Shown here piece by piece: positions 7,875-17,424 of a stretch of DNA of 64,000 bases. The DNA is from Hyperoplus lanceolatus (Eukaryota > Chordata > Actinopteri > Uranoscopiformes > Ammodytidae), in assembly GCA_026929865.2 (NCBI GenBank), contig CM049396.1, positions 27,670,501 to 27,734,500 of the forward strand, written 5' to 3'. The translations under genes were made by a program, and so were the position numbers. The notes beneath the pieces are model-generated. The model was not told the origin of the DNA. It saw only the letters and a list, made by a program, of their open reading frames with translations, and searched no databases. Each line of letters begins with the position of its first letter. Positions within the stretch are counted from its first letter, which is position 1.

Positions 7875-11878
<4,004 letters not shown>

Positions 11879-12386
11879 CAGGCATTTTGTGAGAAAATAT
11901 GGATGGACCTCTCAAAAATTGCAACAGAAACCATTTCAACTGTTTTTGACTCATGAATATGTAATTAATAACATACTAAAAGTCTTAAGGAATCCATGTG
12001 GTGGAAAGTTATTTTCTAAGGGTTTTCTTAACCATACCTTTATGCCAATTTTCGGCTTCCTAAAGTACTGTTTTATAGTTGAGGGGATATGTGCAAAATT
12101 GTTAACCTTTTCAGAAAAGCTTGAAATTTGGTACACTTATACAGTTTGGGGCTCTGAAAATGTTTTGATATTAAGCCATCGCAAAATCGAATCATGGTTC
12201 CCATGGCGACCATTATACTTTCCGCCATAGCCTAATTATGCATTTTTCATCATAACTCTTGAACAAAACATAAAAACACATAACTAGTGATTTCTACCCC
12301 TATGTTTTCATGGTCAGGGAATACTATGACACCACATACAACATTAGAATCAGTTAAGGTCAACAGTTAAGGGTGAATCCAATGTT
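11879..12386 (+). repeat. Left terminal inverted repeat of the 4.1-kb element
   Basis: About 508 bp, matched in inverted orientation by 15471-15969. The inner boundary is where the 'gggtgaatccaatgtt' block ends. The outermost ~30 bp after CAGGCATT differ between arms, then near-identity begins at 'gacctctcaaaa'. Confidence 0.85.
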
Positions 12387-12599
12387 AAAAAAACTGTACA
12401 TTATTTTCTGATATCCACACAAATCGTTCATTACTGTCCAAATCAACCGACAACTTTGTTTAAATGGTACAATGCATGTGCAAATAAATGCTTAACTATG
12501 AAGTAATAACATTGATTTGATTTAATTTTCTTGCCATAAATTTATGAAACATTTTCAAGATAACAATGTCAAGTTATTTTTGGGTAATTTTTGCCTTTA

Positions 12600-15000
12600 T
12601 TAGTTAGAGAGAGAGATCAGAACCATATGACCCGACAGCAGACCTGAAACTCATATGGAAAACTGCCATTCTGTTTGTCTCACAAAGGCCAGCATGGTCT
12701 AGTATGATGCAATTTGCACAGCATGGCAATCATCCGGGGAAAACATCCTTTGTGTTTGCCCCATTGGTTGAAATGAGACGTAGTGACCCTACATGCATCT
12801 ACTCTGCATCTAAGTTCCTATGTGAACATGCCCAGCACCACAATTCCACCCCAATCATCACATTTTATCAACCACTGGTGGAAGGCATTTCTTTAGAGGT
12901 TAAATGACTTGGGGGCTTCCACACTGATATTAGTTGTTGGGGTCCATTGGGCATGTTATGGTTGATGCTGGGAAGAGGAAGTGATGGAGATTTTCTATGC
13001 AGCCGTTGTGCACATTATGACAAATTATGGGAAGATGTTTGGATGGGCTTTGCAGTGATGGAGTCCTCAATTGCCTGATTCTGCCTGATGCACTTGTTGT
13101 GACTCCCCATTAGCTGCAAGGAGATCCAAAATACTATGATGCAGAGATGTCATCAGCAGATGATACCGGCTGGAGATCGGTTAGAAAACTCTGGTGTCAA
13201 TGAAGTTGCTGCAATCTATGCAAAGCCCATGGAGGGATGTCTGCAGAGAAGGCTTGCCATTCTGATTTTATTCCAGAATAAGATGACTTCTCAAATGCAA
13301 AACTGAATCCTTAAAATCCATTGGTAGGCATATTTTGCAATTTTCTGAGAATTGGGAACTTCACTCTGAAACAATATCAGAAATGCTTCCTTTCATGGCA
13401 GTATCAGGGCATAATCTCTACACAAAATCAGCTCACATCTACAGTATGTGCAGAGGATGTGCAAGGTCCATTAGCACCATCCAGATATTAACCAGAGATC
13501 TGAAGGGGGATTCCATGTGGAGTGATCGCCTATGGGCTGGCATGTCCATGGATCTTGAGCAGGTTCTAATGGCAGTATGAAAACCAGTGGTGGCATCACA
13601 CGATTGCAAGGTATGACATGGCTGCAACATCTGACATGGCTTCTTTCCATGCCAGTTTGTGCTGAAGTTAACAACGCACACAGTTCTGAACTATCTCCAA
13701 GAAAGACACAATTACAGGGGGTCCTCATGGCACAGTGGTTATCCCGCAGAGGACCCGGGTTCAAATCCAGCCTGGTTAAGTTCTCTGCATGTCTTCCCCT
13801 CTTTGCCCCATTTGAACTCTGTCTCTCCGAATCTAATGAAGAAAACAAATATTAGAAAGACACAATTACTGCTTGGATCCAAGCTTGTGCAGTGTCTCCC
13901 ACCTTTCTTTGAATTTTGACAGGGCAAAAGCCATCAGAAACACCATTTTGGTTAGCATGGATGGACAAACTACTGCTGAGAACACATTCAAGAAGAGGGA
14001 TTGAGTAATCACCATCAGTACAAAGATCCTCAGTGAAGATTGATTGTGAAGCAGTGCAGGTGGATCTTCACCTACTTTTCAAGCCACACATAATTGCTGC
14101 AAAAGGTTCACAAGAACTGGGATCTAGGTAAGGTATGAACTCCGTCCAGCCCTGTTGGAGACCTTCTTACTGCTTCGACAGCCACATAAGCCACTATTAG
14201 CAGATGCCATTTGGGCGCTCCACACACCTGTCCTTCCAGGAGGGTAAGGTCATATTTAGTATGTGCTGGATGGTGGAGCACTTCTTATGCGCATTGCCTG
14301 GACACCTTGATATACATACAAAGACAAAGCAGCCGATGTCATAGGTGAGAACATGCTGGTTACCTTGAAGAAAAACAAGTTCCTTTCCAATTCCAGTTCA
14401 TCAACATGCTCAGTGGTCACCAACAGAAAAGGAACTGTCAGAAGTACCATGCCACAAGTGATGCTGATTGGCTCATAGAACAGAAAGCAGTGGAGTTTGC
14501 CACACAACAAACGCTGTGCTGATTAGGAAAGGAGCTCCCCTCCAGAAATTAGCTACCAGTTTGTTTTAAGCCCTTTTGTGCGAAGCTGGCCTCTATAACC
14601 TTCTCATGTACAGTATAGCTACTGGGTCCACCACCTACATCAGCAGGAGCAAAGTATCACAGTCAGCGTTTGTACTACAAGGTCCAGCAGTGGAAGGGAA
14701 CAATAGATAAACAAACTCCTGCCTCACAAATATGGATTGTGGGGTGCTTGTCCATATCAAAACTGTCCTACCAACATCTCCACAGATACTCTTATGGGTC
14801 ATCTGATGCACATGCAAGACGGACTGTAACAACCAAAAGTGCACATGCAAGAGGCATGCCATTGAGTGCTCTGTTGCATGTGGTACCTGCAAAGGATCTG
14901 GGGGTGCAAAATCATCTCAGGTTGGAGATGATGATGAGGAAGATGATGAGGAAAACCAGACTATGTTTGAGAAAACTTGCTCCAATGCTTCATACAACTA
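12600..15000 (+). pseudogene. Decayed gene of an unnamed element-borne protein family, CXC-like C-terminus
   Basis: Pieces of one protein can be followed through several frames, broken by stops and frameshifts. In order they are: a segment with 'PIITFYQPLVEG' then 'LGGFHTDIS' (about 12840-12960); 'MLPFMAVSGHNLYTKSAH' and 'SDRLWAGMS' (13385-13560); 'GGITRLQGMT' and 'LLSMPVCAEVNNA' (13586-13680); 'KPLLADAIWAL' (about 14190-14220); 'SDADWLIEQKAVEFA' (about 14455-14505); and 'RLYYKVQQWKG' (about 14665-14700). A cysteine cluster follows at about 14810-14905, spaced C-x3-C-x4-C-x-C-x6-C-x3-C-x2-C. From memory these blocks occur in this order in long uncharacterised proteins that are abundant in fish and marine invertebrates. 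The spacing resembles half of a tesmin/TSO1 CXC zinc-binding domain. The DADxLIxQKA block is reminiscent of FEN/PIN-like nuclease cores. The family match and the functional reading are inference. Confidence 0.6.
13716..13853 (+). mobile_element. tRNA-derived SINE nested in the 4.1-kb element
   Basis: A 138-bp insert is flanked by a perfect 16-bp direct repeat, agaaagacacaattac, at 13700-13715 and 13854-13869. The body has an A-box-like 'tggcacagtggtta' and a B box 'ggttcaaatcc' at tRNA-like spacing. It is followed by the 'gcatgtcttcccc' type 3' segment common in fish tRNA-SINEs. The clear duplication shows insertion by retroposition into the already present gene remnant. Confidence 0.85.
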
Positions 15001-15470
15001 TTAAATAAAACGTAAAAGTCGATCTGAATACTAAGTTGAGTTTTTTTATTGGTCAATTACAAAAGGCTACATTGAAATATGTCTTTTCACATATCCTCTC
15101 TCAAGTTACCACACTCCAGAGGGGGTCAGAGGGCAATGCATATTCATGGTATGCATTGATTTACCCCATTCACATTGCATTAGTACTGCTCAGGCAGCAC
15201 TTTGAATTAGTAGTAGCCTACTTCTGTGCACCAAAATACTTTCATATTAAAATGTATGTTTATCAGTGCAACAATTTATGTTCATTTGTGCTAGTTTAGC
15301 ATTCACAATATTTGTGTTTTTTTATATTGTTATAGTATTTTACAAACATTTAAGCCTAAGTCTTTGTTGGAGAACAAAATTAAAACTTGATACTCAATGT
15401 TTATGCAACATAGGCCCCAATTATAAAGTCACAGCGATGTTTTCGGATACTAGGCTTTTATTTTCGGAAA

Positions 15471-15969
15471 AACATTGGATTCACCCTTAACTATTGACTT
15501 TAACTGTTTCTGATGTTGTATGTGGTATCATAGTAATCCCTGACCATGAAAACATAGGGGTAGACATCACTAGTTATGTGGTATTATGTTTTGTTCAGGA
15601 GTTATGATGAAAAATGCACAATTAGGCTATGGCGGAAAGTAAAATGGTCGCCATAGCAACCATGATTTGATTTTGCGATGGCTTAATATCTGAAAATGTT
15701 CAGAGACCCAAACTGTATAAGTGTACCAAGTTTCAAGCTTTTCTGAAAAGGTTAACAATTTTGCACATATCCCCTCTACCATAAAACAGTACTTTAGGAA
15801 GCCGAAAATTGGCATAAAAGGTGTGGTTAAGAAAACCCTTAGAAAATAGCTTTCCACCACATGGATTCCTTAAGACTTTTAGTATGTTATTACTTACATA
15901 TTCATGAGTCAAAAACAGTTGAAATGGTTTCTGTTGCAATTTTTGAGAGGTCAGGTTATGTAATGCCTG
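15471..15969 (-). repeat. Right terminal inverted repeat of the 4.1-kb element
   Basis: Inverted copy of 11879-12386, ending in AATGCCTG at 15962-15969. A 113-codon frame in the left arm is split by a frameshift here, so the arms are unlikely to encode a maintained protein. Confidence 0.85.
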
Positions 15970-17424
15970 GACTATTACCACTCTATTCAAAATTACACAG
16001 CGTTTGATGCATGTTCTATTCCCCTGTTAGCAACTTTGTCTTCTGCTCCTCTTTTCATCTGTTAATTGCTACAATTTAATCTGTCTCTCACCTATTTCTC
16101 TCAACACACAAAACCTTTTGCTGTGTGGAAATGATGAAAGAATGTACTGCTTCTTTGCAGTGTTGGATTATAGCAATTTGGCTGCTTTGAATCAGGAGAC
16201 AAAGCCTACCTTGCACTGGCTCACCTGAGGCTGGACCATAGGGCTGGACCCACAAACGGCCTCCCACTTGAGATTACTTTATAAATGTTTCTTCTCAACT
16301 ATCGCCGATATCTCTTGGGGTATCTCTATTTATGTTACTGGTTTCAGGCAATATGAAAATTCCGAACCCACAATAAACAATCTCTTCTTTTTTTCACAAC
16401 CATGTTTTTATTGCTGTCCCTGTATTGTGTGGCGGGATTTTTCCAACCTTAGTATCCCCATGGGAAGAATATAACCAAGACAAATCTATGGCTCTTATCA
16501 AACAGTAGCTTAAGGGTCCACATATTTCAGCAAGGGTCCTGCACACACAGATATACACTTTGCTTTATCACATTATGAAAAATATGGGATTGGAATACAT
16601 GTTCTTATGGGATTTCATGACATGTAACGTATGTAGCTCTTCCTATATAGTGGCAGATGATGCATTATTTCAACACTCACTTAAATCAAGGCAGTGATAT
16701 GGAGCTGATAATAGGTAAGGCCTGAGATATTTTGCAACAGATTGACCCGAGCTGGGTTACTGTGGTGTGTATGTGATTACATCCAAAGTGTAAAAAATGG
16801 ATCCTTTGTTTATATCTTAAGCCCCTGGACTCCAGTGTGTGTGTTAGTTTGGTTCGTTCATGAACATCATAAAGTGGTGAATGGTTTTTGTTTATTAGCA
16901 GTGAGAGGTCAGCTTAGCTGAGATGGAGTTGTATTGATTCTTCCATCAACACCTCCCATACTAAATCCTCATTCTGACAACTGTGATTCAACACTTAACA
17001 GACATTTGCCTGTGGGCTGTGTGTGATAAAGCACAAATTGTCAGTGATGGCACAGGTTTCAAATTCTCCAAAAATCCCACTTGCACAAACAAAAACTGTG
17101 ATACTTTGTCAAATTCAAGTTTGATTGTTTTTCTTAAATTTACCTACACACACAGCAGCATAGTTACTACAGCATACATGTGGTTAAACAGTTCAAATGA
17201 AAGACCAGCGCACCAGTTTGTTGCCAAGGCAGTTTGCTTGATTTTGCTGATGGGTATTCTGGACTAGGAGCTTCACACTTTTGACTGCCTGCTGAGTATC
17301 ATGTGTTAAAACTTTATAGTGTGCATTGGTGCACATATTTTGAAAAAAATAAAGGATTTTCAAACTTCTGAGGTTAATTAATTTGTCCTCTTCTGTGTCA
17401 AAAGATATAACTGGAACTACCTAG
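15970..17424. other. Intergenic, no gene recognised
   Basis: AT-rich sequence with no supportable gene, RNA or repeat structure. Confidence 0.5.

Follow-up and report, generated by a model that had tools for sequence, protein, structure and literature searches.

Inverted arms enclosing a broken gene

A 64,000-nucleotide stretch of the Hyperoplus lanceolatus genome (assembly GCA_026929865.2, contig CM049396.1, positions 27,670,501 to 27,734,500), here called the window and labelled G000:C2:27670501-27734500 in our searches of the 806.7 Mb, 527-contig genome, carries a mobile element in which two long inverted arms enclose the remnants of one gene. An earlier note, made from the letters of the window, had described such an element at 11879..15969, with arms of about 500 bp around a broken gene of an apparently unnamed protein family. 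That observation is confirmed: the arms are real, the gene is broken and it belongs to a transposon. The real ends lie at 11874 and 15974, 5 bp outside the borders first given, and are flanked by a target-site duplication (TSD). The element also contains an insert resembling a short interspersed element (SINE).

11871..11873, no strand: left TSD, TTA, identical to 15975-15977
11874..12390, + strand: left inverted arm, terminus TAGTACAGGCATT (from inverted blocks, arm alignment and end comparison)
12608..12904, + strand: transposase remnant, middle of the DDE domain (translation against alignments A2/A3 of relatives)
13287..13577, + strand: transposase remnant, GHNLYTKSAH to DLEQVLM, finishing within the helix that carries the third acidic residue
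13559..13699, + strand: gene remnant, GGITR..GMT to LLSMPVCAEVNNA, in another frame (translation)
13700..13869, + strand: SINE-like insert splitting the gene, body 13716-13853 (138 bp)
13870..14524, + strand: gene remnant toward the nuclease domain (KPLLADAIWAL, DADWLIEQKA), with several frame breaks
14525..14567, no strand: site of a net deletion of about 344 bp (43 bp here vs 387 bp in relative L032)
14568..15004, + strand: C-terminal gene remnant
14807..14911, + strand: Cys-rich, CXC-like tail (translation)
15471..15974, - strand: right inverted arm, terminus TAGTCCAGGCATT (read inward from 15974)
15975..15977, no strand: right TSD, TTA

The arms pair in two inverted blocks, one of 348 nt (93%) and the other of 136 nt (98%). 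Aligned over their full length, 11874-12390 and 15460-15974 agree at 475 positions, with 32 mismatches and 18 gap columns. In the left arm, the first 20 nt or so past CAGGCATT are unlike the other arm. All the protein blocks that the note had quoted, including its Cys cluster, are present in the gene, spread over three frames.

Copies, families and target-site duplications

The left arm has at least 40 matches in the genome (best 40 of 348 candidates scored) and the GHNLYTKSAH block has 138 (best 150 of 153 candidates scored), the window itself being counted in each case; with these numbers, the element is not a chance arrangement. The closest copies, at about 18 places, form the window group, in which the GHNLYTKSAH block is 90-100% identical. 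A second group has the same arms and more divergent blocks (e.g. L027 and L028), and includes, besides L028, other arm matches ending near query position 510. The arms of family A (L032, L033, L034, L035 and L042) resemble the window's left arm: four copies match it at 89.5-90.9% identity over 505 bp, and L035 does so in two pieces (89.8 and 93.0%). Compared within one element, the two family-A arms measure 566 bp and agree at 97.7-99.6% in L032-L034; in L035 they align as two pieces at 98-99%, and in L042, whose locus ends before the second arm is complete, at 89%. Family B comprises L030, L031, L036, L037 and others; in those four the arms are about 330-420 bp, and the stretches common to them and the window arms are only 29-46 bp long.

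The termini of the elements read TAG(T/G)(A/C)CAGGC. At the window's ends (11874-11907 and 15951-15974), the two sides disagree for about 20 nt inward of the terminal CAGGCA, and the arms are nearly identical from there on. The same asymmetry is seen in all three families (window, L030-L037), with different letters in family B.

Insertion of these elements duplicates 3 bp. In every one of the 16 elements for which both ends were available (seven from the window group, five from family A and four from family B), the 3 bp outside the two ends were identical; 4-bp agreement occurred in 0 of 16. When end pairing was shuffled in 10,000 rounds, 3-bp agreement never exceeded 7 of 16. We set the 3-bp register by eye on the window and L032-L035, five of the 16, and then tested it on the other 11 elements, in all of which it held. 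The count excludes the loci for which one end was missing or not retrieved, namely C5 (L002/L047), C10 (L006/L051), C7 (L008), C6 (L010/L053), C10 (L058/L057), C9 (L061/L062), C9 (L056), C23 (L020), C4 (L026), C4 (L028) and the family-B loci L029 and L040. Flanks were compared for eight window-group loci (left side, window included) and for four family-A and four family-B copies (both sides). Only scattered matches of 97-190 bp were common, so the copies are separate insertions and not one duplicated segment.

Short duplications of this kind also occur in PIF/Harbinger, CACTA/EnSpm and Zator, and the element might in principle belong to one of these or to another known superfamily with short duplications. 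PIF/Harbinger elements duplicate TWA, whereas the duplicated letters here are varied (TTA, GTA, TCT, GAA, TCA, TAT, ATA, ACA, CTC and others), being TTA or TAA in 3 of 16 elements and something else in 13. CACTA termini are CACT(A/G), unlike those found here. Additionally, Pfam transposase models are absent from the listed matches of the relatives (scans at E<=1, E<=1 and E<=0.1). We regard this assignment as the least probable of those considered.

A gene that died before its subfamily spread

The window's gene carries several lesions. The region of the first catalytic Asp (D1) is missing from the window copy and from family A; places assigned to these groups match a D1-bearing query (D1 near residue 82) only from residue 147 onward, among the best 150 of 214 candidates scored, some rows of which have no group assignment. 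The second Asp of the DDE domain has become Tyr (TFYQPL in the window vs TFDQPL in relatives). The deletion of about 344 bp took the nuclease core, including the DDTD and GCD catalytic motifs. Among the 20 loci L009-L028, it is spanned and carried by 15, the window's own L009 included; a sixteenth, L014, ends inside it, and L021, L024, L026 and L027 give no match at the site. The deleted segment is retained in all six family-A-type loci (L032-L035, L042 and L068).

The insert that splits the gene is flanked by 16-bp duplications AGAAAGACACAATTAC at 13700-13715 and 13854-13869. We call it SINE-like because of this duplication, its length, 1698 loose candidates in the genome (best 40 scored) and partial copies at four other loci (L035, L038, L063 and L066); an Rfam search with the insert returned nothing at E<=1. 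Of the 20 loci L009-L028, 18 contain it, among them the window's own. L024 stops short of it, with the junction found just past that locus, and L027 has no match for it. A search for the gene-insert junction (<=3 mismatches) finds 61 places in the genome, vs 0 for the reversed pattern. The C4 copy L028 shares the insert, yet has about 545 bp extra inside its GHNLYTKSAH block.

Since the same lesions occur in copies with different flanks and TSDs, the window's subfamily multiplied after its gene had died, and must have drawn on an enzyme from another element. In this subfamily the gene is a dead passenger, and the insert that the copies have in common serves as a clean genetic marker of a spread later than the gene's death.

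Predicted transposase and nuclease domains in the relatives

What the gene once encoded can be read from its relatives. A DDE-type domain (RNase H fold) is supported by a low-confidence model in the relatives L030, L065, L076 and L077; the window copy has lost the first-Asp region. A FEN/XPG-type nuclease is indicated in L032 and its alignment by a predicted fold together with the catalytic acids; of the eight letters at the first acid, one is Q, from row L030, which is out of frame at that point. The DDE part and the nuclease share one frame in L065/L073. This distant relative (C14:6565700-6573499) has an uninterrupted 1353-aa frame through DDE, nuclease and CXC. In family A the gene starts at the arm's inner edge, without the first-Asp region, and some copies keep an open nuclease-CXC half (a 725-aa frame in L032 at C2:17181500-17191499, 492 aa in L068), which is broken in others.

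In keeping with the note's description of an apparently unnamed family, no Pfam model claims the gene. Six window pieces gave 0 matches at E<=1, and relatives gave weak matches, mainly to DUF6589, under the cut-off wherever bits were shown. In one scan of relatives (E<=0.1), DUF6589 was matched by 4 of 12 rows, with a best E of 1.8e-5, and each of five further families by a single row. L070 has a sub-threshold TCR/CXC match. A PDB sequence search with L032 (725 aa) matched designed armadillo repeat proteins over residues 268-339 or so (best E 5.9e-7), and its Cys-rich tail drew weak rows, EHMT2 among them; the search with L030 returned a single row (E 0.28). Viral contigs scanned with two nuclease proteins yielded no relative. 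A literature search for DUF6589 found nothing, and among the papers listed by our other literature searches we recognised no description of the family, which we do not thereby claim to be unpublished. A 3696-aa frame at C22:21736349 was rejected as an artefact of N runs.

The note had left open whether the gene was cargo or the mobilising enzyme. The gene might be host or foreign cargo of a transposon whose transposase sits elsewhere, and its death in the window subfamily, where it has no part in its own movement, speaks for that explanation. Three families (window group, A and B) with related termini and 3-bp TSDs nevertheless carry the same gene between their arms, and relatives encode the DDE-type domain in the same frame. 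Cargo is therefore very improbable, and the protein is better seen as the family's mobilising enzyme.

Dozens of rows similar to G000:C24:1788148-1788904 represent a recurring rearranged fragment. In it, a transposase piece of about 100 aa (query 118-220), often in stop-free frames of 147 aa, and a nuclease piece (78-189 or 81-166) sit on opposite strands some 100 bp apart; the pairing was checked by coordinates for a few rows. The fragment appears to be a non-autonomous derivative of family B in its own right.

Probable assignment to the AcademX lineage

The nuclease of AcademX transposons is of the XPG type. The combination of a DDE-type transposase, a FEN/XPG-type nuclease and a 3-bp TSD leads us to file the element under AcademX. 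We consider it, with a probability of roughly 85%, a new member of this lineage of the Academ superfamily of cut-and-paste DNA transposons, present in the window as a decayed, non-autonomous copy. The excerpted text of PMC10045372 gives TSDs of 9-10 bp for AcademH and 3-4 bp for AcademX and ties the two to a helicase and a nuclease, respectively; that of PMC5199201 gives 3 bp for Academ. The TSDs here fall within the AcademX range, and transposase and nuclease are likewise combined, although the window copy itself is without the transposase start and the nuclease core. AcademH, which bears the same superfamily name, differs in its helicase and its longer duplication. The note's suggestion of a class outside the standard list is not supported, as the features fit Academ, which is among the Repbase DNA transposons in the excerpt of PMC4455052. 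As evidence against itself, the note had named arms from a known superfamily with its own transposase and an inner gene absent from other copies. The arms do, most probably, fall in a known superfamily, with this very gene as its transposase, and gene remnants are present in other arm-bearing copies. Overall, the note's interpretation is partly supported.

The P-element transposase is not known to contain a FEN-type nuclease. The P superfamily has TSDs of 7-8 bp in the excerpt of PMC5199201, compared with 3 bp here, and the DDE resemblance is one of fold only. The FEN1, EXO1 and XPG nucleases are 10-14% identical among the 50 listed VIA rows, and differ in that the nuclease here is fused with both a DDE domain and a CXC tail.

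Several points weigh against the AcademX assignment. The DDE model has a mean predicted local distance difference test (pLDDT) score of 54.9 and a predicted template modelling (pTM) score of 0.52; a Foldseek search with it returned no significant match (best E 0.25), and the tool warns that low-confidence models yield meaningless matches. Among the best 150 of 214 candidates scored, we recognised no element combining the subfamily's arms with a complete gene. AcademX was compared by its published description, in which the wording of PMC10045372 is only "nuclease".

Because the comparison with Academ was by published description, an unlisted class keeps a small share of the probability. These elements could form an undescribed superfamily, with a P-like DDE transposase, a FEN1-type nuclease, a CXC tail and a 3-bp TSD, that merely resembles AcademX. 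The want of a Pfam model at cut-off where bits were shown is in keeping with this, while the TSD length and the nuclease partner match what the excerpts of PMC10045372 and PMC5199201 say of AcademX; we think it unlikely. Equally doubtful is the joint proposal that a separate unlisted superfamily (P-element-like DDE, FEN1/EXO1-like nuclease and CXC) exists and that 5'-truncated family A spreads as a half-element on the DDE protein of others.

Proposed mechanism and implications

Full-length relatives would make a single protein that binds the arms, perhaps by means of its CXC tail. The RNase H-type DDE domain would excise the element and insert it with a 3-nt stagger, cutting and joining the ends, and the fused FEN/EXO1/XPG-type nuclease may trim or resolve branched or flapped ends, or process the non-transferred strand. 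The window copy has lost the region of the first catalytic Asp and the nuclease core and gained the SINE-like insert, and its subfamily multiplied after these losses on enzyme supplied in trans.

On the AcademX reading, an unnamed multicopy protein becomes readable as a transposase with a P-like DDE domain and a complete-looking FEN/EXO1/XPG nuclease. The nuclease thereby acquires a concrete role in Academ transposition that can be put to the test, and the annotation of proteins that have no Pfam name gains a starting point.
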